Origin: a virus
Virus record (IMG/VR): IMGVR_UViG_3300032224_000292
Span: 1-30,003 of that record
Direction: 5' to 3' (one strand)
Length of the DNA stretch: 30,003 nt
The notes beneath the pieces were generated by a model, which made no database searches, was not told where the DNA came from, and saw only the letters and a program-made list of their open reading frames with translations. Of this stretch, positions 281-26,279 are shown one piece after another; the stretch's first letter is position 1; the number at the start of each line of letters is the position of its first letter. The position numbers and the translations under genes are program-made.

Positions 281-748
281 TTAATTGCCTTGAATCAATT
301 GAGTAAGTTCTTCTGCGTTAGCCGCGTTCATAACTCTATTCAATAAATCCTCAGCCTTGTCAGGGTTCATACCAAGTTGAGCAACTACATCTTGCTGCCG
401 TAGGGCTGCTCGATTAAGTTGTTGTTCTTGGGTTTCCTCTGGCTTAGTTAATCCAAACAAATCTCCATTATCATCAAGCCAGTTATTAACTGACTCTTCG
501 TTAACTTCTTCTAAGTCTTTAAGGATTAAACGTTGTGCCTTTAGATTGACACCCTTCTTTTCTAGGACTTCCTTGACGACTCTCTCACGCTGCGACTTGG
601 AAAATCCCTCAAGTTGCTCAGTGAGTTCCTTAATACGCTTCTCGTCTGCACGTTTGGCTTTTCTTAGTTTCTTAACTAAGTCATCGCCTTGCAGAGGTAC
701 ATCGTTATCTTGGTCTTCGTCTTCGTCTTCCCAGTAGTTGTTGCTCAT
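281..748 (-). CDS. Capsid scaffold/assembly protein
   Basis: Encodes 155 aa from the ATG at 746-748. This start is preferred to an upstream in-frame TTG at 779-781 because AGAAGGGTGGG sits a few bases before the ATG. The N-terminus is extremely acidic (Glu/Asp alternating at residues 6-15), followed by a charged, heptad-like helical stretch (about residues 25-75) and an Ala/Gln/Glu-rich C-terminus. There are no enzyme motifs. An acidic, coiled-coil, low-complexity protein of this length directly before the coat gene is typical of scaffolding proteins that fill the prohead and leave before or during DNA packaging. The role is inferred from position and composition. Confidence 0.65.
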   Translation of the reverse strand: MSNNYWEDEDEDQDNDVPLQGDDLVKKLRKAKRADEKRIKELTEQLEGFSKSQRERVVKEVLEKKGVNLKAQRLILKDLEEVNEESVNNWLDDNGDLFGLTKPEETQEQQLNRAALRQQDVVAQLGMNPDKAEDLLNRVMNAANAEELTQLIQGN

Positions 749-834
749 AGCAACCCACCCTTCTATTCGTTGTAGTCGCAAGCCACAGTTTCCAATCGGG
801 GAATTGGTCTGGCTCTTGCTATCGGTCTAATACG

Positions 835-870: not shown

Positions 871-2010
871 TTAGAACTGTCCTGAAGAAGAACCTTTACG
901 TAAATATTGAGTTGATAAAGAACCTTGGCCTAAAGCAGTACCTGAACTACCAGAAAACTGGTTTATTTCTAATTGTGATAATTGTTCTTTCTTACGTTTA
1001 GCAGATGCTAATTCTTTAAATGTTGCAGCCTCAGCATCGGCTTGATTATAAGTAATACCTGACTCACCATAAATTCGGCCTAGGCTTCCAGCAGTAGGTA
1101 ACTCTTCACCAATTTGACTGTAACCTCGTTGTGCTTGCTCTCTATTGATACCGTAAGCAGCAAGGTCTTCAGCGGTTGTAGAAGTAGCAGATAGTCCTTG
1201 TCCTATTGCAGCACCACCAATTTCAGCAGCAGTTGCTTTTTGTTTAAGATTTACTAAAGCCTTCTTAGGGTCTAAGAAATAGTTAACAAGGTCTGCTTCA
1301 CCAATACCATAGAAGTCTTGAAATGCTTTCTTTGTTGATGGGTCAGCCATTTTAACTCTATCTACCGCAGTAGATACTCTATCGGTAAATTCAATAGAAG
1401 ATATATCAGCACCAATAACATCTGCTATTGCAGACTGTTTAGTATCTGTATCAATACCAAAGTAACTTTCAAGACCATATGCTTTAAGAGTCTTTGTATA
1501 ATCATCTTCTAGTGTTAAATATTCGGCTTCACTTAATACATTTAAACCATTAGCACGGCGGGTTTCATTACCCTTAAATCTTTTGATATATGCTGCATTA
1601 AATTTAGGGTCAGTCTTTAAAGCAAGAGTTGCTTCTTCGGGACCATAGCCTTCACGCATTAAAGTTTCTATTGTGGCTCCTAATGAGCCTAAACCATATT
1701 GATTAAATACACCTTTAATGATTGCAAAAGCATCTCTCATTTCTGGAGTTATTTTTTTATCATCTGCTAATTTCTTTAATCTTGCAGCCTCTGCTGCTTC
1801 TTCTGCTATTTGTTCTGGAGTTTTGCCAGCATTTGGATTATTTACATAATCAGTTATATTGCTAAACCCAGGTATTATATTTCCACTTTCGGGTTGATAG
1901 GCAACATTAGGTATAGTTGATGCAGCAGGAGTTGCAACCATTCCAGATAAAGGATTGTATGGAGTAGGTGCATCTGGAGTATATTTACCTGTAAGTGGGT
2001 CGTATGCCAT
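871..2010 (-). CDS. Presumed internal virion protein (379 aa)
   Basis: I do not recognise a characterised family. The N-terminus is rich in Pro, Gly and Tyr with a repeated 'DPLTG/NPLSG' pattern, followed by an Ala/Glu helix (about 65-90). A mostly helical domain with an NETRRANGL...LSEAEYLTLEDDY segment follows (about 148-172). The C-terminus is Gly/Ser/Gln-rich and probably flexible. There are no membrane segments or catalytic motifs. Its ATG overlaps the preceding stop codon (TAATG) with little Shine-Dalgarno sequence, so translation is probably coupled. It sits between two larger uncharacterised proteins and the scaffold/capsid pair, so a structural or DNA-ejection role is inferred from position only. 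Confidence 0.55.
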   Translation of the reverse strand: MAYDPLTGKYTPDAPTPYNPLSGMVATPAASTIPNVAYQPESGNIIPGFSNITDYVNNPNAGKTPEQIAEEAAEAARLKKLADDKKITPEMRDAFAIIKGVFNQYGLGSLGATIETLMREGYGPEEATLALKTDPKFNAAYIKRFKGNETRRANGLNVLSEAEYLTLEDDYTKTLKAYGLESYFGIDTDTKQSAIADVIGADISSIEFTDRVSTAVDRVKMADPSTKKAFQDFYGIGEADLVNYFLDPKKALVNLKQKATAAEIGGAAIGQGLSATSTTAEDLAAYGINREQAQRGYSQIGEELPTAGSLGRIYGESGITYNQADAEAATFKELASAKRKKEQLSQLEINQFSGSSGTALGQGSLSTQYLRKGSSSGQF

Positions 2011-3683
2011 TATGCTATCAATCCAAAGTTTTTAAGAATACTATTAGCATAACCAGTAGCAGTTTCTCTAGCATTGGTAGTCTTACCCCAACGTGGGTCT
2101 TTCTTAAGGACACGTTCAAATTCGGTTAAATTCATCGCTCCCTTATTTCCATTATTTTTAAGTGCTGTTTGAATAGTTGGATTCAATACATCAATTTGTG
2201 CATCAGGTATTTCTAAAATCTGACGCATTGCAGATTTATAGTTAGCAGATAAATCATCTAGGTCAACCTGCTCAGATAGAACATCTGATAGGTTAGAATA
2301 AGTAGCCTTAGATATTGCAAGTATCTTTGCATTGATTGCTTTAGTGTCATTCTCATTATTTTGCAATGAGGCTGATACATACTTCAAGGCATCTTTATTA
2401 CTTAAAGTTACACCGTATCTTTTGGCATAGGCTAGTGTGCTATTAACTGCTTGAGCAGCACCTGAACCACCCTTTAACACTGTGTCAATATCAGAACCAT
2501 CAAGTGCTTTGCCAGCAACCTTGCGTTGTAGTTGAAGTATATCTTCAGTATCTAACTGATATTCACCTGTGGTTACCTGTGAGGTACCACCAGAATCTGT
2601 ACCTTTAGTAGTAGTAACTTTAGCATTCTTTTTTTCCAATGCTCTTAACTCTTTATAATATTTAGTTAGTTCTTCTTCTGAAGCGGTCCGTCCTACATAG
2701 TCTATAAAGAATCTATTTAGGTCAGAATCTGCTTCATCTTTTTTAGTTACATATTCATCATAACTTACCTGTGGTCCACCAAGGCCAGCAGTCTTAAGGT
2801 CTTCTTGTATGTATTTAAAGAATGGTTTTGGTTCAATGTTTTTGTTTGTTTCTAAATCATTTATCATTGCTTTAGTGTGCTTTTGTAAAGCATATGATAA
2901 TGCTTTGCCAAAACTCTCACTAGTAGTATCAAGTCTGTTGTAATCGTTTTCAGGAATTCTAAGACCAGCACTTCTTAGGTCATCAAACAAACCTTTAAGC
3001 CCACGAGAAGATTTGATGGAATCCTCTATAACTCTTTTTCTTACTGCATCAAAGTTAGAGGTAGCAGGTGTGTAGTCTTTAACCATTTGTCCAGCATTCT
3101 TAGCCATAAACAATGGAACTTTAGTATCTTCTGATATGTATATATACTGTTGAGTTTGACTATCACCTTCAGTACCACTAACCCAACTACCACCAGTATT
3201 AGGGTCAGTTGTTACTTTTAAACCTTTAGCATTAACATCTTTTACAAACTCATTATCACCAGCATATTGCTCATTGCCAGGGGTGCCACCATCTGCAGTT
3301 GTCTGTGCATTTTGTAGTGTTTTAATTTCTGTTTCTAAGGTTGCGGCTTTATCTCTTTGAAGAGTATCTTGTGCAGTTTTTAATTCTTTTTGTTTATCTT
3401 CAATTTGTTTATTTCTTTTTTCTTTCTTTTCAACATCTGCTATGCTAGAGAGTTCAGTATCAATTGATTTTATTTCAGCAATGCGTGCTTGAACTTGAGC
3501 ATCTAATTTTGTTAATTCAGCCTTTGCTGCATTGTATCTTTCAATACCACTCTTACTATTATTGTCTTTCCAAATAGCCATACTGTGACGTTGAACCTGC
3601 ATGTTTTCAGCATCACGAGAGTTTAATGCCTTAAGACCTCTTTGCTTGTCTCTTAACTCACGTTGCTTCTTTGATTCAGCCAT
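2010..3683 (-). CDS. Presumed internal virion protein with N-terminal coiled coil (557 aa)
   Basis: The first about 130 residues are strongly charged and helical (many Lys, Glu, Asp, Gln), reading as a coiled coil. A Thr/Gly/Ser-rich linker follows (about 130-175), then a largely helical domain including FFIDYVGRTASEEELTKYY (about 323-341). A second Thr/Gly/Ser linker (about 357-372) leads to a helical C-terminal region. No known enzymatic motif was found. The start ATG overlaps the stop of the 1707-aa gene (TAATG), with AAAGGA in front. Such long helical proteins next to a giant one resemble the internal core/ejection proteins of podoviruses in general layout. That comparison is an inference, not a sequence match. 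Confidence 0.55.
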   Translation of the reverse strand: MAESKKQRELRDKQRGLKALNSRDAENMQVQRHSMAIWKDNNSKSGIERYNAAKAELTKLDAQVQARIAEIKSIDTELSSIADVEKKEKRNKQIEDKQKELKTAQDTLQRDKAATLETEIKTLQNAQTTADGGTPGNEQYAGDNEFVKDVNAKGLKVTTDPNTGGSWVSGTEGDSQTQQYIYISEDTKVPLFMAKNAGQMVKDYTPATSNFDAVRKRVIEDSIKSSRGLKGLFDDLRSAGLRIPENDYNRLDTTSESFGKALSYALQKHTKAMINDLETNKNIEPKPFFKYIQEDLKTAGLGGPQVSYDEYVTKKDEADSDLNRFFIDYVGRTASEEELTKYYKELRALEKKNAKVTTTKGTDSGGTSQVTTGEYQLDTEDILQLQRKVAGKALDGSDIDTVLKGGSGAAQAVNSTLAYAKRYGVTLSNKDALKYVSASLQNNENDTKAINAKILAISKATYSNLSDVLSEQVDLDDLSANYKSAMRQILEIPDAQIDVLNPTIQTALKNNGNKGAMNLTEFERVLKKDPRWGKTTNARETATGYANSILKNFGLIA

Positions 3684-6600
3684 TAGTATCCTTTGTATGC
3701 TTTAGCGGTATATGTATCGCGGGAATAGTAACTAAGAATTGATTTAAATATTGCTCTGCTTGCCTCTGTTAGAATAGCGTCTCCACTACTTAGGCTTGCA
3801 ATTAAATTATCTACTTCATCCTTGAAACTTCTTTTAATATCAGAAAAGTTTTCTGCCTCACGAAGTGAAGCATCATTAGCCAAAGATACAAACTGACGTA
3901 CTCTTGATGTAACCATTGCTAGTCTCTGACGTGTTCCAACTGGCATTTGAACAGATGAGTCTTTAATCATCTCTTCAAGATTAGATAGCATATTTAGTTC
4001 TGTTGCTACTTCATTACCACCAGCAACAAGTGCTGTTTCTAGTAATGGATTAGACATCTTAAGTAAAGCACGTTGTCTTGTTGCTTCAGCAATCTTTGCT
4101 GACCTAGCAGTAATGCTAGGTGTTGACTTTAAAAAGTCTTTCTCTTCTTTGGCAATATCGTAATAGGCTTGCTTATCTTTAGCAACTAGAATATCTAAAT
4201 AGTATTGTTCTAAAGATTTATTTCCAAGCAATCCTGCTGCCTCTAGATATGCATAAGTAGGGGCATCAAAGTTACCTGTATGTGGTGCAAGTATCCATGC
4301 TGTTTCACCATACTTCTTAATGTTGGCTTCATTTTGGATAGACCAGGATTTAACTGCCTTAGTCTTTTGAATAACTACATTAGTCTGCTTCTCATTACGA
4401 GCAACTGTATAGATTAACTTGCCTGGGTTCTTACCCACAAACGTAGCAACTGCTAACTCATATGGGTCTTGAACATCACCCTTATACTTCTGAGTTACTG
4501 CATTTACTAGGTCATAAAATTCTGGACGTAATCCTGTTATGCCTACCTGTTTAAGGTAATCTGGCAGATTAATACTCTCTTGAACCGATGGAGATACTGG
4601 AGAAAACAGACCAAGAATATTACGCATTACAACCACATTATGAGCAGATATTCTAATTTGCTTTAAGTAGTTGTACTTATCTTGTGCAGATGCATTAGGG
4701 TCTAAGTACTTAGCCATCTGTTCATCAGTATTAAAGGCTTGATTGTAGGCAATAGCCTGCATAGCAGCAGTTGATTCTTGCCTATCCTTCTCATCTTTAG
4801 GTACTATTGAATATAATTTTTGTAGTGATTGTGGAACTAAAGCACGCATTACTGTCATGCCATCGCCTATATCACCTAAAGCATAGTTATCTAATTCTTC
4901 TGATAATGCTTTTGTTTGCGGTACTTTACCTAGCAAAGACTTCATACTTAGTACGCTTAACGCACCAATAGGTCCAGATAGTGTAGGCATACCAGCATCT
5001 GGAGTAAATGAAGGGTTAGCCATAGTAAGTTTAAATGTAAATTGATTAAATTTTGGTTGTTTAAAACTTTGTTCGCCAGGTCCTAATGCACGAACTGTTC
5101 TATCTACAACACCAAAGATAACGTTATCTGTTGGCATCATGATATATGGCTCACCATTATTATCCTTATACACACCACCAGCGGCATCTAAACCAAGATG
5201 CATCAAGCGCATACGGAATAAAACTCTAGGTGCTACATCTTTTAGGCGGTACATTCTGCGCCAAAAATCCTCAGTAGCACGGTAATAGCGACCAGTATTA
5301 CGTACTGATACAGCAAAGTTAGTTCTAACGTTAGGGTTATCAACAAACTTTAATACAGAATCTGCTGCTTCTTGAACAGATATTTCTGTTACAAGTTTCT
5401 GAGCATGCTGTCTTGTATCCTCTAGGATTGCTGACTTAACTCTATCTCCTATAACTTTACCTTCATCTTCATACTCTCTTAATTTATCTGCATAAAGTTT
5501 TCTAGCCATTTGTTTTTCTAATACATCATAATTCTTACGAATATCTAGATACTTAATCATTACTACTGGCTGGCGTAGGATACCTGTTACTTGGTTATCC
5601 ATCAATTCCATCATACCGTTACCTAGTTTGGCATAAGCAGTTTCCATATCGGAAATACCTGGGCCTTCAAGGGTAGTAAACAATTTACCCTTAGGTTGAT
5701 AGCCTTTAGTTAACTCTTCAAATTGCTCAAAGGTTATTTTTTGTGCTGCCTTTTGAGCCTTGTTAGATATTCTATTTCCACTACTAATTTCTTCTTTTGC
5801 TAATTCATCATAAAGAGATTTAAACTTATTGAATAATCCTTCATTAAATCCTGTTGCACTGCCATGGAAAGTTTGACGCATATCTAATAGAACACGGTCT
5901 ACTAAAATTTCAGCAATTTCCATATCGGTTAGTCCTTGCAAACGCAAGGCGCTAGTATGGGCTGTCATACCCAAGAAACTCTTTAATGCTTCAGGGTCTT
6001 TAACTGAGTGTGTAATTTTTATATCTAATGAAGGTATTAAACTCTCATCAAATTGTCCTAATAAATCTGTATTCTTTCTTAAACCTACATTTTCTAATAG
6101 GTAAGTTTTAGCCCCAGCAAAGTCACGTTCTGTTCTTAAGCCCTTACTAAGAACAAATGCAGCAACTGGATTAAACTTAAATGATTCACCAATGCCTTGA
6201 TTTTTTCTAGTATTACCATAGAAACGTTCTACAAAGTTTTCAAAGTGAACTAAAGAAACACCACGGCCTGCAAGGGATTGAAGTGAAGCCAACTTCTCTG
6301 TGTCTATTCTTTGGCCATTCTTACCTTGAACTAAATCTGGGAAAAGACCTACGGCTACATCCAGATTACTCATGTTAACTAACTGCTCAGTTACTTCGGC
6401 TGATTGCCGTCCAACAAGGTTTGCTCCCGCAACAACAGACCTAGTGCCTGCTGCTAGATACTGTGAGTTTAAAGTTAATCCTTGTATTAAGAATTGAACT
6501 TCATTATCATTTAATTTACCAAGAAAACCTTTACGGTTCATTGCCTCAGTAATATATTGTGCTTGTGCAACTTTGCGTTCTAAAGATGATAAGTCTTCAG

Positions 6601-8806
6601 GTTCTTTTCCAATTGTATTAGCGTAATCTCTAATCATTGCAAGTCTTGCATCTTTATCATACATATCAGCAGGAGTTTTTCTGCCCAATTTTCTAGCAAT
6701 CTTAACTCTTAACTGCTCACCAGTCTTAGAACCAGAATATGCTGCAGCAATTCTGCCCATTCTGTGACCTTTACGGTCCATGTATGCAAATAAATCTTTA
6801 GCAGGTGCTGTTAAATAGTAAATAAAACCTTCATCAATACTACTTCGTATACCCAAACGTGGGAAAAGTGTAAAAGTAGACCAGAAGTTAATTATGTTAG
6901 TTGACAATGCGCTACTTGTAGCACCGCCAAACATAGCAGAAACTAGATTTCCTCTATTTGCTTCATAAGCAACCTGTGCTAATTGTTGATAATCAAGGGT
7001 GGATATAGCACCACGCTCTTGGAATGGATGAATGATGCCTTGTGAATCATATTTTACTGCATCACCCTCTAGTTTAACACCAGCCTTAGATACAACATTT
7101 TCAAAACCTATGGGAACATCTAGTTTTTCAGTAACTGCAACGCCTACTGAAGAACCATACTTATCTTCAAGGGTTTTTCTTATGTACTCTCTACCTTTTT
7201 CTGTTCCTTCAATTCCTAAACGTTGCATAATTGCAACATCAAGACTGCGAAGCATAGCAACTTGGTCATTTGCATCAGCAGTAATAAACTTAACGGTTAA
7301 AGCCTCTGATAAATCTTTTGGTAATACTTGACGTGCTGTATCTCTAAAGACATTTGCACTTTTAATAGATTGTTTGTTATCAACAACATTAAGTTTAATT
7401 TCTTTATTGTGCGGAGTACGGGCAGTAAGAAGAGAAACTTTTTCTTTAAGAGTTTTGCGAGAGAATTTTGCAAAGTCTGTTATTTCTGAACCTATTATGT
7501 CAGCCTCACGGGTAGAACCTGCTTTAACAAGAGCCTTTGATATCTCTTCAACTGATTTAGCAATCTCTTTATTTGTTCCAGACTTAGGATTTAAGAAATT
7601 ACTTAGCGCTTTTTGAGCACCAGTAGTTAATCTGCGTTGATTACGTGCAGTTGCTATACCATTACGGAAAAACTGAGCACCATCTACCCTACCAGACATA
7701 AACATGGAAAGATTATCAACGTTTGAGAAAACTGTTTGAGCACGACTAGCATCAACAACATTGTTTCTTTCTAAGAAATCAATAGCCTCATCATTGTTAT
7801 AGCCAGGAAAACGTCTTTTAATATCATTACGTATTGCAATCTTACTAATTGAATCTGGTTCAGCATTAAGTCTTTTAATTTCAGGACCAATTTGATTATC
7901 CCATAATTTAACTACATCTTTGTTGTCGCGAAATATGTCCTTTACTCCAGCAACACCAAACTGCTCAATGGTCTTACGCATTTGAGTACCAGTTTGATTA
8001 GCCATACCAAAGGCCTTAGCCTTAAATAAGGCCGTTGCTCCACCAGTAACCCAAGTTGTTGGGTCATGGGCAATTTGATATATAAAATCTATAGGACCAG
8101 AAATACCTGGCAGTCCAACAGCACGAGCAATATCTCTACCTGGAGATACCTGTGCAAATTTAACGCCATCCATAACTTTTTGGAATGATTCTGGGTTATT
8201 ATATGCTTCTTCTAAAGCATCTAGTAATTTAACATTTACTGTGCCACCAGCAGCAGCAATAATCTCTCCTGGTTTTTTACCAGCAATTAAACCCTTGGCT
8301 ATCTCAACTCTTTCAACACCAAAATAATCTTGAGCATTTGTTAATGCACCTTGGTCATAAACTCTACGACCATCCCAAGCATCAGTAAATGATTCTTTGG
8401 TAAACAAACCTTCACCTTGGGCAGCCTGACGTGCTAGGAGGTAAGGTGTATCAATTGCTCTAGTAAAAACGCCTGCAGCCTTAAATAATAAAACTAATGG
8501 ACTCTTAAGAATGTTGAATCCAGTTTTTACTGCACCAGTAAGATAGTTACTAGCACCTGGTTCTGCTAATTGATAATCTGCTTCTGGAAATAAAAATTTT
8601 AATTTCTCTTGAGCACTAGGGTCTAACCCTTGGAATTCTTTACGTGCAGCATCAATAGGTTGTTGATTTAATTTTTTGTTTTTATCAACAGTCCAACTAA
8701 ACTGCTCTAATTGAGTTCCTGCTTGTATAGGAAGATTTGCGCTTTGAGCAGCGGCATAAAGATTTGGACTAGCCTTGGCTACTATTGGGTTAAGACGATA
8801 TACCAT
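3683..8806 (-). CDS. Giant presumed internal virion / DNA-ejection protein (1707 aa)
   Basis: The largest gene in the window. Composition is soluble and helical, with no signal peptide. A hydrophobic patch around residues 95-115 (GFNILKSPLVLLFKAAGVF) and Gly/Ala/Pro-rich patches near 1250-1290 could touch membrane. I saw no convincing lysozyme, polymerase or protease motif, and it does not look like a tape-measure protein with repeated Trp/Phe segments. It lies between the portal/protease cluster and the scaffold/capsid pair and is coupled by TAATG at both ends, with AAGGGT before its ATG. By size and position it is best compared with the giant ejection proteins of T7-like or N4-like phages (T7 gp16 type), an inference without sequence homology. 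A siphovirus or podovirus morphology cannot be decided from this window. Confidence 0.6.
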   Translation of the reverse strand: MVYRLNPIVAKASPNLYAAAQSANLPIQAGTQLEQFSWTVDKNKKLNQQPIDAARKEFQGLDPSAQEKLKFLFPEADYQLAEPGASNYLTGAVKTGFNILKSPLVLLFKAAGVFTRAIDTPYLLARQAAQGEGLFTKESFTDAWDGRRVYDQGALTNAQDYFGVERVEIAKGLIAGKKPGEIIAAAGGTVNVKLLDALEEAYNNPESFQKVMDGVKFAQVSPGRDIARAVGLPGISGPIDFIYQIAHDPTTWVTGGATALFKAKAFGMANQTGTQMRKTIEQFGVAGVKDIFRDNKDVVKLWDNQIGPEIKRLNAEPDSISKIAIRNDIKRRFPGYNNDEAIDFLERNNVVDASRAQTVFSNVDNLSMFMSGRVDGAQFFRNGIATARNQRRLTTGAQKALSNFLNPKSGTNKEIAKSVEEISKALVKAGSTREADIIGSEITDFAKFSRKTLKEKVSLLTARTPHNKEIKLNVVDNKQSIKSANVFRDTARQVLPKDLSEALTVKFITADANDQVAMLRSLDVAIMQRLGIEGTEKGREYIRKTLEDKYGSSVGVAVTEKLDVPIGFENVVSKAGVKLEGDAVKYDSQGIIHPFQERGAISTLDYQQLAQVAYEANRGNLVSAMFGGATSSALSTNIINFWSTFTLFPRLGIRSSIDEGFIYYLTAPAKDLFAYMDRKGHRMGRIAAAYSGSKTGEQLRVKIARKLGRKTPADMYDKDARLAMIRDYANTIGKEPEDLSSLERKVAQAQYITEAMNRKGFLGKLNDNEVQFLIQGLTLNSQYLAAGTRSVVAGANLVGRQSAEVTEQLVNMSNLDVAVGLFPDLVQGKNGQRIDTEKLASLQSLAGRGVSLVHFENFVERFYGNTRKNQGIGESFKFNPVAAFVLSKGLRTERDFAGAKTYLLENVGLRKNTDLLGQFDESLIPSLDIKITHSVKDPEALKSFLGMTAHTSALRLQGLTDMEIAEILVDRVLLDMRQTFHGSATGFNEGLFNKFKSLYDELAKEEISSGNRISNKAQKAAQKITFEQFEELTKGYQPKGKLFTTLEGPGISDMETAYAKLGNGMMELMDNQVTGILRQPVVMIKYLDIRKNYDVLEKQMARKLYADKLREYEDEGKVIGDRVKSAILEDTRQHAQKLVTEISVQEAADSVLKFVDNPNVRTNFAVSVRNTGRYYRATEDFWRRMYRLKDVAPRVLFRMRLMHLGLDAAGGVYKDNNGEPYIMMPTDNVIFGVVDRTVRALGPGEQSFKQPKFNQFTFKLTMANPSFTPDAGMPTLSGPIGALSVLSMKSLLGKVPQTKALSEELDNYALGDIGDGMTVMRALVPQSLQKLYSIVPKDEKDRQESTAAMQAIAYNQAFNTDEQMAKYLDPNASAQDKYNYLKQIRISAHNVVVMRNILGLFSPVSPSVQESINLPDYLKQVGITGLRPEFYDLVNAVTQKYKGDVQDPYELAVATFVGKNPGKLIYTVARNEKQTNVVIQKTKAVKSWSIQNEANIKKYGETAWILAPHTGNFDAPTYAYLEAAGLLGNKSLEQYYLDILVAKDKQAYYDIAKEEKDFLKSTPSITARSAKIAEATRQRALLKMSNPLLETALVAGGNEVATELNMLSNLEEMIKDSSVQMPVGTRQRLAMVTSRVRQFVSLANDASLREAENFSDIKRSFKDEVDNLIASLSSGDAILTEASRAIFKSILSYYSRDTYTAKAYKGY

Positions 8807-9213
8807 TAGTACCCTTCGTCTAGTAAACTTCTATATATTAATTCAGCCTCACCAGATGGGTCATATGGGATTAAATTTCTAATTACATCTTGGATTGTAT
8901 ATGAAGGATTAGGTAGTTTTGGTTTTGCTTCTGACCCAGGTCCATCACCTATATCAATACCAGAAGTAATAGGTTCATTAGGACGTGCAGTAGGTGCCAT
9001 TAATGGTGTTGGCATTTCCATTTGAGGAATTGGATTGCCAGCCATAGGGGCTGCTACTTGGTTGTTATAAGTTTCTTGTCCTTGTCCGTATGGTAATCCT
9101 GGGATGTAAGTTGCAGGTTGTGTTGTACCCCCGTCAGTGCGTTGACTAAGAGCGCCAGGGCCTGATATTGGGGCTGGGTTATTCGGTTTTCTATATCCAC
9201 CTTGCTGCGCCAC
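8806..9213 (-). CDS. Pro/Gly-rich small virion-associated protein
   Basis: Encodes 135 aa from a GTG start at 9211-9213, chosen because AGGAGGAA precedes it by two bases. The first about 95 residues are low complexity, rich in Pro, Gly, Gln, Thr and Asn and probably unstructured. The last about 35 residues (YTIQDVIRNLIPYDPSGEAE and on) look folded and acidic. The stop overlaps the ATG of the 1707-aa gene, and the gene follows the Ntn hydrolase closely. No family is recognised. It may be an adaptor, a scaffold-like protein or a substrate of the neighbouring protease; none of these is shown by the sequence. Confidence 0.5.
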   Translation of the reverse strand: MAQQGGYRKPNNPAPISGPGALSQRTDGGTTQPATYIPGLPYGQGQETYNNQVAAPMAGNPIPQMEMPTPLMAPTARPNEPITSGIDIGDGPGSEAKPKLPNPSYTIQDVIRNLIPYDPSGEAELIYRSLLDEGY

Positions 9214-9221
9214 ACTTCCTC

Positions 9222-9791
9222 CTACTTAGTAAATTGTGTTTTGATATTTGCGGTTCCACCGCACCATATGTTGTACTGAATTGCTATGTTAATTGCTTTC
9301 TTTGCTACACCTGTTGCTTTAGCATGTGTTTTAGTTTCAGTTTCCATTGAGACTAATGCACCAAGGGCTAATGCCCCACCTGTGCCAATCCCATAAAAAC
9401 CTTTATCGTCTCGCATATATCCATAGTCATCACTAACTTGATATAACTTTCCATTAAAACAAATTAATGCATCCCAACCAGAATCATCATCATTCTTACC
9501 CTTAGGATTTGGGTCATATCCCACTTCAGTTAAAGTTTGCTTTATAGATGGCAATACTCTAATCATCATAAATCTATCTGGGTCTTGCGTCTTAATTACT
9601 TTAGGTGGTTGCCATAAGTTATTAAGAATATCTCCAGCAATAGCATCTCCTGCTACTGCAATTAGATACTCGCCAACTTTAACTATCTTGTCGCAGCCTT
9701 TTGCTACATATGGTCTATCTGTATATGTAGTCATAGAGTCTGCTGCTAAGACAACCCAGCCTTTACCTTGAATACCAACTATTGCTGTCAT
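9222..9791 (-). CDS. Proteasome beta/HslV-like Ntn hydrolase, candidate prohead protease
   Basis: The 189-aa product begins Met-Thr-Ala-Ile-Val-Gly, with VVLAADSMTT next. After removal of Met, Thr becomes residue 1 and the Asp of AAD is residue 17, exactly the Thr1/Asp17 spacing of proteasome beta and HslV subunits. A DKI motif supplies Lys at 34, matching catalytic Lys33 with one inserted residue, and AVAGDAIAGD matches the Gly/Ala/Asp turn that follows in the family. A GIGTGGALALGAL segment (about 135-147) matches the later conserved Gly-rich core. The start is ATG at 9789-9791 with GGCGGGGG upstream, 15 bp after the portal stop. No unfoldase partner is nearby. Its place directly after the portal suggests a capsid maturation protease; the Ntn-hydrolase fold is well supported, the role is inferred. 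Confidence 0.75.
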   Translation of the reverse strand: MTAIVGIQGKGWVVLAADSMTTYTDRPYVAKGCDKIVKVGEYLIAVAGDAIAGDILNNLWQPPKVIKTQDPDRFMMIRVLPSIKQTLTEVGYDPNPKGKNDDDSGWDALICFNGKLYQVSDDYGYMRDDKGFYGIGTGGALALGALVSMETETKTHAKATGVAKKAINIAIQYNIWCGGTANIKTQFTK

Positions 9792-9806
9792 TGTCCCCCG
9801 CCTAAG

Positions 9807-11552
9807 TTATCTTCTTACAACAGTCCTTGCGCTTGCACTACCTTTACCAGTAGAACTTAAACTAGATAAAAGACTTTGTAATCCGCCACCTTGCTGTTGA
9901 GGAGGTAAACCTCCTGCTAATGCTGCAGTGGGAGCAGGGGACATTTGCTCAACCTGTGGAGCACCAGCAGGAGGTAATTCTGGTTTAAAGATTTGCTCAA
10001 TAGCGTCTTCAATGGCTACACCTTTTTGACGAGCCTTGATTACATCAGCAATCTTTATAACTATGTCGCTTGGGTCCCCACCTTGTGTTGCAATTTGTGG
10101 AATTGCTTGCGTATATGCTGCTAATGAACCAATCAAAGAGTTACGCATCTCTTCAATTTCAATCTTTTCTTGTTCCATTGTTACGTTAATACCAAATGGT
10201 AGTTCACGCATAACCATATCTTTAGAAATAATTTTAGCACCTAGTGCTTGAAGCATGAATATAAGTCCTTGTGCTGGATTAAGTCCAGCCAACATGCCAT
10301 ATCTAACATCTGCAGAGTAATCACTCTTAATGTCTTTAGATGGTTTGTAGTCAATGCTGTAAGGAGAACCAGCATCTACACCACGAACTGTTTTTTCAAA
10401 ATCAAAGAATGTTTCATCAATTTCAAAACAAAGAGAGATAACATCTTTAAGTACTGAAGCAAAGATTGCTTGAGCAGATTTAACTTGAGTATCAAAGCCA
10501 CCCATAAGTGCTTGCACACCTTGGCCAGTAATAATACTTGCATCGAGGTTACCAGTACGGGACTCAGGATAACGAGTACCTAAACGTAACTCTTGTTGCA
10601 ATAATGATTGTTCAGTAAATGCACCTTGTGGAATAGGAAGTTCTACACGTTTTACTCCGCCAGGGTTATTGGTGCGGATAATTGCATCTCCACCAAATTG
10701 AATTTCTTGAACATCATTAGGAACAACAATTGGTGATTGAACTGATTTCTCTGCTGCTTCCATCGCGAGTAATGCGAACCTGTTACGAAGCAGTTGGATA
10801 CCTAGAACATCATCAAATTGTCCACGCATCTCTCCATCTACAGAGGGACGTCTAGCAACTATTACCATCATTTTACCAGTTGGATTAATAGCCTGAGATA
10901 AAATTAAGTTATTGCGAGCAGGAATATAAATCAATGATTGGTCTTTATCGTAGTAACGAATAAACTCAACCAGTGTATTTAGATTCTGGTCATAGCCATT
11001 AGGTCCTAGAATCTGTTGTTCATATTCTGGGAACTGGGCTATTAACTCAGCAAGTGTTAATGAGTATCTCTTCACGAAGGCAATGCAACGTCCGTAGCGG
11101 TCAAATTCTGGGTAAGCCCCAACTGGACTTTCTACACGTATACGCGGCAGCCCCGCTTCTTCGTCTAATTCAATTATGAATGGGACGAAACCGAATGTGA
11201 TGTAATGGTCTGCACCTGTGTACATCTGCACTTGTAAATTAGAATGAACAAAATAGTTAGCAGCAATGCGGGTTCTTTTATCAGCAAAAGAACGAGCACG
11301 GTCAGATACCTGATTTGCTGCAGAACAATTAACTGCTGGAAGTGGAGCCATTACCTCAGATAGGTCACGGGCAACAATGTCAATAAAGTTTGCTACTACG
11401 TTGGCTTCTACACCTGATGGAAAAAAGTTAGGATATACCTGAGCAATATTACCTTTACGGACAGCAAGAACATCCTGTGCTCTGCGGTCTCTCTCAGTAG
11501 AGCGTTGCTTAAGAGATTCAACTCTTGCTGCAACTTGTCTAATATTTAACAA
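9807..11552 (-). CDS. Portal protein
   Basis: Encodes 581 aa from a TTG at 11550-11552. AAGGGTGGG lies about 8 bases upstream, almost the same site as used by the scaffold gene, and the only nearby alternative (GTG in that site) is followed by a stop in frame. It has an N-terminal helical region, a mixed central domain with ESPVGAYPEFDRYGR (about 141-155), and a segment with TGQGVQALMGGFD (about 344-356). An acidic, Glu/Ile-rich helix (about 450-475) and a Pro/Gln/Gly-rich flexible tail follow. Size, domain order and position between terminase and protease fit the dodecameric portal that forms the DNA gate at one capsid vertex and docks the terminase. Confidence 0.8.
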   Translation of the reverse strand: MLNIRQVAARVESLKQRSTERDRRAQDVLAVRKGNIAQVYPNFFPSGVEANVVANFIDIVARDLSEVMAPLPAVNCSAANQVSDRARSFADKRTRIAANYFVHSNLQVQMYTGADHYITFGFVPFIIELDEEAGLPRIRVESPVGAYPEFDRYGRCIAFVKRYSLTLAELIAQFPEYEQQILGPNGYDQNLNTLVEFIRYYDKDQSLIYIPARNNLILSQAINPTGKMMVIVARRPSVDGEMRGQFDDVLGIQLLRNRFALLAMEAAEKSVQSPIVVPNDVQEIQFGGDAIIRTNNPGGVKRVELPIPQGAFTEQSLLQQELRLGTRYPESRTGNLDASIITGQGVQALMGGFDTQVKSAQAIFASVLKDVISLCFEIDETFFDFEKTVRGVDAGSPYSIDYKPSKDIKSDYSADVRYGMLAGLNPAQGLIFMLQALGAKIISKDMVMRELPFGINVTMEQEKIEIEEMRNSLIGSLAAYTQAIPQIATQGGDPSDIVIKIADVIKARQKGVAIEDAIEQIFKPELPPAGAPQVEQMSPAPTAALAGGLPPQQQGGGLQSLLSSLSSTGKGSASARTVVRR

Positions 11553-13719: not shown

Positions 13720-15606
13720 TTATCCGTAAGTTTCTTGCCATTGTTCTGCAAAGGCTTCGTCTAGATTGATTGAGTACTTTTTGCTGTCTTGCGCTTTAGT
13801 TGACCAGCGATTAGAAGCGTAACGACTTATCCTGCTGTTCTGCTGCATAAGTTCCCTTGCCTTAAGCACGGTAAACCATAGAGCCATAACGCAGTCTGTC
13901 TTGCCCCTAGTATTAGGCTTCCAAGTTATTAACTGTTGGACTAATGCTTTAAGACCTTCTGAATGGTCAGTAGATGCAATTTCAATAATATTATTATTCT
14001 GGAACTTGCCATCTCTTTCAGTGCCCATGAGCATTGACATACCAGCCACACCAAAGTTTGAATCCCATTTATTCTTGCTGGTAAAGTGAGACTCTAGTCT
14101 GCATCCATAAGAAGCAAGCCAGTTGCGAAGGTCGTCATCTAATGAGTACGCTTTTTGGTGTGCGTTAATCTCAACGCGTAATTCTTGGGGTCTATACTTT
14201 AAAACTAATTCTTCTATACTGCTTTGAATTTTTTGCGGAGTAGGCTCTGACATGTTTACACAGTCAATGACATAAATTCTGCCATCTGCTCGGTTGTAGG
14301 TAATCACCACAAACGCGGCATTCCCGCCCATTGCGGGGTCGAACCCGATTATTGTATACCCCTCAATGTGCGAGGGATGTCCCACGGAACCCGCTTTCAG
14401 CGGTCCGCGTTTGCGTTGTCCATTAATACAACCTTGAACAAGCAAAGGGGGAAATATAGAATCTTCTTGAACATCTTCTTGTTGGTACACCAACGCCCAT
14501 GTTGATGGTGTAACTTCACTTCTTCTTTTAAATAGTGTTAGGCCGTCCCATTTTTGGAAGAGTCCTTCTTCGTCAGGAACCTCAGAATCCCCATCCCACG
14601 GAGCGTCCGACTTAGGCCAGAGCGTTTCCCAGTCTTTCGGCTTCTCTGAATATTCCAATACAGCAGGCATGCCCATATAAGTAAAAGGGCTTTTACCACC
14701 AGACCAGTGTTTCGTCTCGCGGAGTTCTTTGTAGAAGTCTTGTGGCGCAATTCGTGTCCCTACGATTAATAACTTACCGTTCTTACCCAAACGGGTAATA
14801 ACTTCTTTCTGTAGCCAGTTGATTTGTTTTTCCCATTCATGGGCGTTTGCTGTAGTGATGCAGTCATCAAGAATGATGAGGTCAGCACGTGCTCCATAAA
14901 TCTGTCCACCCATACCTAGTGCTTGTATGGTTGGGTCTTTCTCTGATGAATTTCGGGCATCGCCCCCAAGATAAACGGTATCAACTCGCCAAGTATCAGA
15001 GTCTTCTTTCCAACCACCTTCGGGGCCAAAAGTTGTTTGCAACTTTAACCAGCGTGGATGGGAGAGACGTTGCTTGATTGCGTACACGAACTCGCGTGCT
15101 TTGATAAGCGTTTTAGAAACCACAATGATGCGGATATTTGGATTGAGGGCAATGCGATATGTGGAGTAGTTTACGGTGATGACCGTACTCTTAGCGTGCT
15201 CAGGTGGCACATTGATTAAGAGACGTGATGGGTCGCCAGGTTCATAAACCATACTAGGGTGAAGCCATGAAGGCTCGCGGTCTTCTAGTAAGTCAATCCA
15301 ATCCAAGTGGTGAGGGAATACCCTCTGCTGCAAAAATATCTCAGAGAACTGGGGGAAGTTTATTTCTTCCTTAGGGATACCCAAAGAAGAGAGGGAGGCA
15401 TCCTTAGCGGTTGCTTTAGCCTCGGTTAAGTCAGCGGCAAACTTCTTATCCCTCAGGCACCAGATTCTCACGGTGTCGGGTTTCTTGTTACATAGTTCCA
15501 TAGCCTTATGGACAGAGTGTCCTTCGGACACCAAGGCTAATACTTTTGCCTTTGCTGCTGCCATGGCCAAGGTTTTGGGGTTAGTACCCCCTTTATCAAA
15601 ACTCAT
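13720..15606 (-). CDS. terL: Terminase large subunit with N-terminal HTH-like domain
   Basis: A 628-aa packaging motor. Residues about 14-62 form a helix-turn-helix-like segment (VSEGHSVHKAMELCNKKPDT) of the kind found in small terminase subunits and transposases. The ATPase domain has a Walker A variant PPEHAKST (134-141) and Walker B DLIILDD (242-248). The C-terminal RNase H-like nuclease has GFDPAMGGNAAFVV as its first acidic strand and a conserved Asp in CVMALW. It cuts concatemeric DNA and pumps it into the prohead through the portal. The start is ATG 15604-15606 with ACAGGAC very close, a weak site. It is the first gene of the left arm. No separate small terminase gene was found in the window, so the N-terminal domain may provide DNA recognition. 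Confidence 0.93.
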   Translation of the reverse strand: MSFDKGGTNPKTLAMAAAKAKVLALVSEGHSVHKAMELCNKKPDTVRIWCLRDKKFAADLTEAKATAKDASLSSLGIPKEEINFPQFSEIFLQQRVFPHHLDWIDLLEDREPSWLHPSMVYEPGDPSRLLINVPPEHAKSTVITVNYSTYRIALNPNIRIIVVSKTLIKAREFVYAIKQRLSHPRWLKLQTTFGPEGGWKEDSDTWRVDTVYLGGDARNSSEKDPTIQALGMGGQIYGARADLIILDDCITTANAHEWEKQINWLQKEVITRLGKNGKLLIVGTRIAPQDFYKELRETKHWSGGKSPFTYMGMPAVLEYSEKPKDWETLWPKSDAPWDGDSEVPDEEGLFQKWDGLTLFKRRSEVTPSTWALVYQQEDVQEDSIFPPLLVQGCINGQRKRGPLKAGSVGHPSHIEGYTIIGFDPAMGGNAAFVVITYNRADGRIYVIDCVNMSEPTPQKIQSSIEELVLKYRPQELRVEINAHQKAYSLDDDLRNWLASYGCRLESHFTSKNKWDSNFGVAGMSMLMGTERDGKFQNNNIIEIASTDHSEGLKALVQQLITWKPNTRGKTDCVMALWFTVLKARELMQQNSRISRYASNRWSTKAQDSKKYSINLDEAFAEQWQETYG

Positions 15607-25855: not shown

Positions 25856-26016
25856 TGCCTTACTATGACTTTGAATGTAAAGTGTGTATTAAAATTGTTG
25901 AAATTAATGAACCAACTCCACCACCTTGCACCTCTTGCGGTACTCTAATGGTTCGTGTATGGTCTCCTATACCAACCCACTTTAAGACAGGTGGTTTTTA
26001 TTCTACGGGGGGCTAA
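25855..26016 (+). CDS. FmdB-type zinc-ribbon protein (53 aa)
   Basis: ATG at 25855 overlaps the previous TAA, and the stop at 26014-26016 overlaps the WhiB start. The product begins MPYYDFECKVCIKI and has a second CTSC near residue 25, the usual MPxYDFxC...CxxC pattern of FmdB zinc-ribbon proteins. A THFKTGGFYSTGG end matches the family's 'HFKGSGFY' motif. Usually a regulator of unknown target. Short length and exact packing between neighbours make it a good gene. Confidence 0.7.
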   Translation: MPYYDFECKVCIKIVEINEPTPPPCTSCGTLMVRVWSPIPTHFKTGGFYSTGG

Positions 26017-26279
26017 TGAAATTCAGTGATACTCCAGCATGTACAGGTATTGATGTGGAGATATTTTTTACAGAAGAAAAAGGTCATTACGCTAACCTTG
26101 ATTATATAAAAAAGATATGCAATACTTGTCCAGTACAAGTCGAGTGTTCTGATTACGCAATGGAACACCTAGTTCATGGAATATGGGCAGGTACTACTAA
26201 GCAAGAAAGGGATAAGTATAGAAAAAAACGTGGGATAATTGGTAAGACAGTTGTCCCAGACTCTATATTTAAAATGTAA
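26016..26279 (+). CDS. WhiB-like Fe-S transcriptional regulator (87 aa)
   Basis: Four conserved cysteines at C9, C35, C38 and C44 (C-x25-CxxCPVxxEC) ligate the [4Fe-4S] cluster, and the GIWAG turn follows at 55-59, ahead of a basic C-terminus (KQERDKYRKKR). This is the diagnostic WhiB layout, a family restricted to actinobacteria and their phages. It probably binds the host housekeeping sigma factor and alters host or phage transcription. It starts at ATG 26016 in a TAATG overlap with the FmdB-like gene. Confidence 0.9.
   Translation: MKFSDTPACTGIDVEIFFTEEKGHYANLDYIKKICNTCPVQVECSDYAMEHLVHGIWAGTTKQERDKYRKKRGIIGKTVVPDSIFKM

Follow-up and report, generated by a model that had tools for sequence, protein, structure and literature searches.

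A proteasome-like hydrolase encoded behind the portal gene of an actinophage is probably an exchangeable accessory peptidase

What does a member of the proteasome family do for a phage when its gene sits directly behind that of the portal protein? The question is raised by a stretch of 30,003 nucleotides of viral DNA (here called the window), a 30-kb piece of a phage of ~40 kb. A first-pass annotation of this sequence recognized an Ntn hydrolase in the "prohead-protease position" and proposed, from location, that it matures the capsid. Here, we conclude that the protein (hereafter Ntn) is probably an exchangeable accessory threonine peptidase of the infected cell, similar to BPH and HslV, and that scaffold and MCP are most likely not its targets. 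This role is the most likely one because close relatives either keep the gene elsewhere or do without it, while their heads are nearly the same. The gene and its catalytic codons are located as follows:

9222..9791, minus strand: proteasome-like Ntn hydrolase gene, 189 aa, ATG start, no propeptide (Met1-Thr2); identified by PF00227, phrog_1040, AF2 and Foldseek
9786..9788, minus strand: Thr2 codon, nucleophile Thr1 once Met is removed; invariant in the alignment
9738..9740, minus strand: Asp18 codon, Asp17 of the mature protein; invariant in the alignment
9687..9689, minus strand: Lys35 codon, Lys33 equivalent with a one-residue insertion; invariant in the alignment
9648..9650, minus strand: Gly48 codon, equivalent of Gly47 of the oxyanion hole; invariant in the alignment

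The encoded protein begins Met-Thr-Ala-Ile-Val-Gly and matches PF00227 with 33 bits (Pfam cut-off, 22.4); an allele from a sister genus described below scores 49.5 bits. It matches phrog_1040, "peptidase HslV family," with E 8e-27, and all phage relatives of Ntn considered here are assigned to that same family. The nearest PDB entries by sequence are a proteasome beta subunit and BPH. Across 14 diverse sequences, with identity down to 29–38%, residues T2, D18, K35 and G48 (numbered from the ATG) do not vary, and the alignment retains a G-S/T-G-G motif throughout. In mature numbering these residues are Thr1, Asp17, Lys34 and Gly47, the catalytic Lys falling one position past Lys33 in our alignment. 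Comparison with ~40 relatives gives a dN/dS of ~0.1, indicative of purifying selection. A chance ORF at 9222-9791 is thus ruled out by the PF00227 and phrog_1040 matches, the invariant catalytic residues and the dN/dS. We also considered a bacterial origin; a genome scan returned only matches of 23–34%, mainly from planctomycete and proteobacterial MAGs, and because they reach no higher we claim no bacterial donor.

An AF2 model built from a shallow alignment of near-identical sequences was unusable (pLDDT 37), and a model from a diverse alignment (pLDDT 84.1, pTM 0.83) was used instead. It has the four-layer alpha-beta-beta-alpha fold. Foldseek places BPH at the top (E 1.7e-11, TM ~0.7), then HslV and proteasome beta, and these families lead the 1156 PDB matches with E up to 0.001. 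The structural comparison called for in the first-pass annotation thus returns the Ntn fold, and the profile matches, invariant residues and fold together show that its assignment of Thr1/Asp17/Lys33-type chemistry with a Thr nucleophile was right. In the model, H1 and H2 are present (helix 71-89 occupies the place of H2), and a long S3/S4 insertion is absent. The H2-S5 pore loop has 14–18 residues, of which 4–6 are acidic. With Thr1, the Asp/Lys pair and the oxyanion Gly all in place, the enzyme appears, from its sequence and predicted structure, to be catalytically competent. The earlier remark that no HslU-like unfoldase lies nearby extends to the group: a profile search found no AAA_2 unfoldase/HslU (PF07724) in 12 of its genomes, and the sole PF00004 match, considered as a candidate AAA+ partner, proved to be the P-loop of DnaB.

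Ntn does directly follow the portal, starting 15 bp past the portal stop. Its neighbors, most of them in the same late operon, are these:

281..781, minus strand: probable scaffolding protein (phrog_7813; immediately before the MCP in relatives)
871..2010, minus strand: 379-aa late protein (phrog_8424)
2010..3683, minus strand: 557-aa late protein (phrog_6654)
3683..8806, minus strand: 1707-aa large protein, a probable internal/ejection protein (judged by synteny)
8806..9213, minus strand: x135, a small conserved late-operon protein (phrog_8200; adjacency in relatives)
9807..11552, minus strand: portal protein (phrog_104, E 7e-24; 15 bp upstream of Ntn)
13720..15606, minus strand: terminase large subunit, TerL (phrog_38, E 1e-68)
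26016..26279, plus strand: WhiB-like regulator, a marker of actinobacterial hosts (PF02467, 57 bits)

The early module also encodes a DUF932 protein (PF06067; 19409-20407). From the window WhiB, together with the cultured relatives LanE43AprE7/F5 (ct2KA10 records), which grow on 'Ca. Planktophila', we infer a host among the freshwater Nanopelagicales or near them. The paper on these cultured phages names protein-degradation genes among those annotated, its main text giving no further detail (PMC10202952).

In a relative closed by a 48-bp terminal repeat (G006), the order is TerL, portal, Ntn, x135, 1707-aa protein, 558-aa protein, 422-aa protein, scaffold and MCP. The scaffold begins ~8.6 kb and the MCP ~9.1 kb downstream of Ntn, so that the phrase "prohead-protease position" is a loose one. 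The G006 MCP is 322 aa long and has no N-terminal extension; the scaffold is a separate protein, whose G006 homologue shows a weak match to the scaffolding family phrog_648. The MCP (314–400 aa) lacks an N-terminal delta-like domain and is accompanied by a separate scaffold of ~158 aa. T7 and P22, phages without head cleavage, similarly have a separate scaffold and an MCP without a delta-like domain. The group MCP occurs in a form of 314–322 aa (L084:16567-17535) and one of ~400 aa (L094:29782-30981), in heads that are otherwise alike, which suggests an optional inserted domain. The 1707-aa protein, which has no match in PHROG or Pfam, was considered as scaffold or MCP and rejected, since the true MCP and scaffold are located elsewhere in complete relatives. 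Its length is steady among relatives (about 1560–1713 aa) and its sequence similarity almost gone; the window protein and that of ct2KA10, for instance, do not match in blastp, despite 74% portal identity.

How constant is the place of Ntn? Of 162 loci retrieved with Ntn as query, 146 have the portal directly upstream; the remaining 16 pointed to a sister genus (G012-G014). What lies between portal and x135 differs among relatives: Ntn, Ntn plus an acidic-tailed protein of ~85 aa, a protein of ~75 aa, or two tiny ORFs. We therefore regard this interval as a variable slot, seen in the window around 9792-9806 and 9214-9221 and likewise in loci L389-L450; the ~75-aa slot protein ends in DEEDE-like residues. 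In the window lineage, late expression with the head operon is expected for Ntn, and to be packed tightly into a late operon right behind the portal, as Ntn is in 146 of the 162 loci, would be odd for a pure takeover gene. Genome position alone, however, does not settle function.

A search with the window portal gave 69 contigs with sufficient room downstream (portal identity 72–98%). In 32 of them Ntn follows the portal; in the other 37 (portal 72–79%) it is missing from this place, which is occupied by a protein of 74–80 aa. Four long contigs among these 37 (G039-G042, 36.8–40.5 kb), one of them closed by a 127-bp terminal repeat (G040), contain no Ntn anywhere according to two independent profile searches. 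Their identities to the window group are 74–75% for portal, 66–79% for scaffold and 68–82% for MCP. Because these genomes share scaffold, MCP and portal with the window group yet have no Ntn, the protein is dispensable for the head. A dedicated scaffold/MCP protease should be present in phages that share both substrates, barring a replacement.

The sister genus offers a second comparison. Relative to the window, its portal is ~51%, its MCP ~47% and its TerL 42–43% identical. Wherever the sequence extends far enough upstream (67 loci), Ntn is flanked by the endolysin on one side and a PD-(D/E)XK/WhiB/DnaB unit on the other, and in 67/67 the portal runs directly to x135 with no Ntn between. A hairpin terminator precedes Ntn in 41 of 44 sister-genus loci, as against 3 of 138 portal-slot loci. 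From its position and this terminator, the sister-genus Ntn is separated from the late operon, and we infer that it is expressed early. Exactly one copy is found in 9 of the 16 larger sister-genus contigs, all of the longest included, suggesting that the gene is of more than marginal benefit. Several other features of this region may be recorded. The hairpin between endolysin and Ntn is strong and conserved (L178:8820-8848, L055:3853-3881) and adjoins an opposite-strand, CxC-rich ORF of ~90 aa. Two unrelated endolysin types alternate beside Ntn (e.g., L009 vs L055); window-like endolysins (65–72% identity) co-occur with window-type Ntn alleles. The orientation of the early module with respect to the late operon is opposite in the two genera (L083/L084 vs L247/L248).

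Two types of allele occupy the sister-genus slot, one 37–42% and the other 81–88% identical to the window Ntn. In G032, for example, Ntn is 84% identical to that of the window, and the portal 51%, scaffold 37%, counterpart of the 1707-aa protein 27% (partial) and MCP 47%, the last figure having been obtained with the G006 MCP as query because the window ends before this gene. In a maximum-likelihood tree, early-slot alleles are split among three positions, of which two are nested within the clade of window-type portal-slot alleles, and three changes of slot are needed; a single clade of early-slot alleles is rejected, albeit modestly (p-AU 0.03). The acquisition of near-window alleles by the sister genus implies that Ntn moves independently of the head genes.

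These comparisons bear directly on the proposal that Ntn assembles in the prohead and cuts scaffold and/or MCP. The frequent seat behind the portal, the late operon and the unfailingly intact catalytic residues are all in its favor, as is the lack of matches to Peptidase_S78 (PF04586) or ClpP-type (PF00574) proteases in 12 genomes of the group other than G039-G042. Nonetheless, we consider it very unlikely. Near-complete relatives with much the same scaffold and MCP have no Ntn, and the sister genus keeps the gene outside the head module, behind a terminator; on these grounds we abandon the capsid role that had been drawn from location. The separate scaffold and the MCP without a delta-like domain also resemble those of non-cleaving phages. 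Moreover, some distant carriers possess another prohead or capsid protease, or its domain, a finding that the first-pass annotation had said would count against it, although it concerns the more distant phages (WaterT, pSal-SNUABM-04, DSL-LC01). In Microbacterium phage WaterT, Ntn is gene 15 (PF00227, 31 bits), and gene 24, right after the portal, is a separate "capsid maturation protease" by its deposited annotation (no Pfam match here). DSL-LC01 has its Ntn homologue before WhiB and a PF04586 (S78) match elsewhere in the genome, at 23 bits, near the cut-off. In Salmonella jumbo phage pSal-SNUABM-04, three prohead proteases accompany two HslV-like genes, and HslU is absent (PMC7823757). Other homologues lie beside dCMP deaminase (XacN1), ThyX (Pumpernickel) or thymidylate synthase and RNase H (AAS21), among small early genes (D'Alembert, Hum25), or on the early strand (VpV262, assigned by length and N-terminus only). 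We found no virion role for phage HslV-like proteins in the literature.

A different link to the virion would have Ntn, in the window lineage, trim internal or ejection proteins (x135 and the 1707-aa, 557-aa and 379-aa proteins), or be packaged and injected. This has a small chance of being correct and is the strongest surviving rival, because Ntn shares an operon with the putative ejection genes it adjoins and because its type partly tracks that of the 1707-aa protein: identity of the latter to the window is 52–87% with window-type Ntn and 24–40% in Ntn-less phages, and blastp finds no match with the ct-type. The strict co-evolution hinted at by ct2KA10 is broken, though, by G032, which pairs a window-type Ntn with its distant giant, and by G004, where Ntn is 87% identical but the giant 52% and the 557-aa protein 40%. 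The early slot of the sister genus is likewise ill-suited to a late virion role. A narrower version, in which Ntn is a virion-associated threonine protease in the portal-slot lineages, acting on ejection proteins or injected, and part of a module gained and lost, seems improbable; if true, a proteasome-family enzyme would have been recruited to virion maturation or entry. Ntn might also not be a peptidase at all but an Ntn amidase, a connectase-like ligase/transpeptidase or a decoy that enters and poisons the host proteasome. The family includes the ligase connectase, Thr1/Asp17/Lys33 alone leave the reaction unfixed, and actinobacterial hosts can carry 20S proteasomes, which counts for a decoy. 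Yet H1 and H2 are present without a long S3/S4 insertion, unlike in connectase, the nearest folds are the BPH and HslV proteases, and an invariant active site would be needless in a decoy. We judge this family of explanations unlikely.

How might an accessory peptidase of the infected cell work? Removal of Met would free Thr1. The subunits probably form a self-compartmentalizing ring like that of BPH, with no dedicated phage unfoldase, and this ring would degrade unfolded proteins in the cytoplasm of the actinobacterium during infection. The targets would most likely be host or misfolded proteins, in the service of takeover, amino-acid salvage or counter-defence. In the window lineage the gene would have been inserted in the variable late-operon slot; its sister-genus counterpart stands at the front of the WhiB/DnaB early unit.

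Phage proteasome homologues have been catalogued, but their function is not established. The loci described here provide natural contrasts: near-identical head modules occur with and without Ntn, and one and the same allele occupies a late slot in some phages and an early slot in others. These contrasts argue against a capsid role and toward a function at the infection stage. The known range is also broadened by the presence of a group-I-like protein in hundreds of actinophage contigs, since Fuchs et al. 2021 (PMC8665760) reported no AAH from any actinophage. The function can be tested in cultured carriers (Planktophila phages E7/F5, Microbacterium phage WaterT, Arthrobacter phage Hum25). A word of caution also follows: a seat behind the portal is poor ground for naming a capsid protease.

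Compared with known systems, Ntn most resembles BPH (PDB 5ovs, 5ovt, 5ovu), with which it shares the fold, a full-length sequence match and a compact group I subunit, as well as the long acidic pore loop and lack of a dedicated unfoldase described for BPH (PMC8665760). Identity is only ~20%, however, and Ntn is phage-encoded; Table 1 of PMC8665760 lists no BPH in phages, and we do not claim membership in BPH proper. With HslV (ClpQ), it shares the Thr1/Asp17/Lys33/Gly47 plan, the fold (PDB 1g3i, TM ~0.7) and the GxGG motif; it differs in having no HslU partner, <20% identity, no propeptide, and a pore loop much longer than the very short H2-S5 loop of HslV (PMC8665760). Connectase, described in the same account as a monomeric protein ligase of the proteasome family, lacks the first helix pair and has a two-helix S3/S4 insertion (PMC8665760), the reverse of the arrangement in Ntn.

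Fuchs et al. 2021 (PMC8665760) described two phage-borne proteasome homologues, PPH and AAH. Like them (AAH by description only), Ntn is group I-like, compact and found in Caudoviricetes. It is not PPH, because PPH is ~140 aa long and lacks H2 (PMC8665760), and it departs from AAH in that the present carriers infect actinobacteria. It falls within phrog_1040, a family known by name only. The classical prohead proteases (S78/HK97 gp4, T4 gp21/S77, U9/U35) are likewise encoded after the portal, but their fold and nucleophile are unrelated, and Ntn has its supposed substrates, scaffold and MCP, 8.6–9.1 kb away, while relatives that share the head genes manage without it. The cultured relatives LanE43AprE7/F5 (OX376640/OX376641) also have Ntn after the portal; there, Ntn is 30% and the portal 74% identical to those of the window, and the 1707-aa protein is not recognizably related by blastp.
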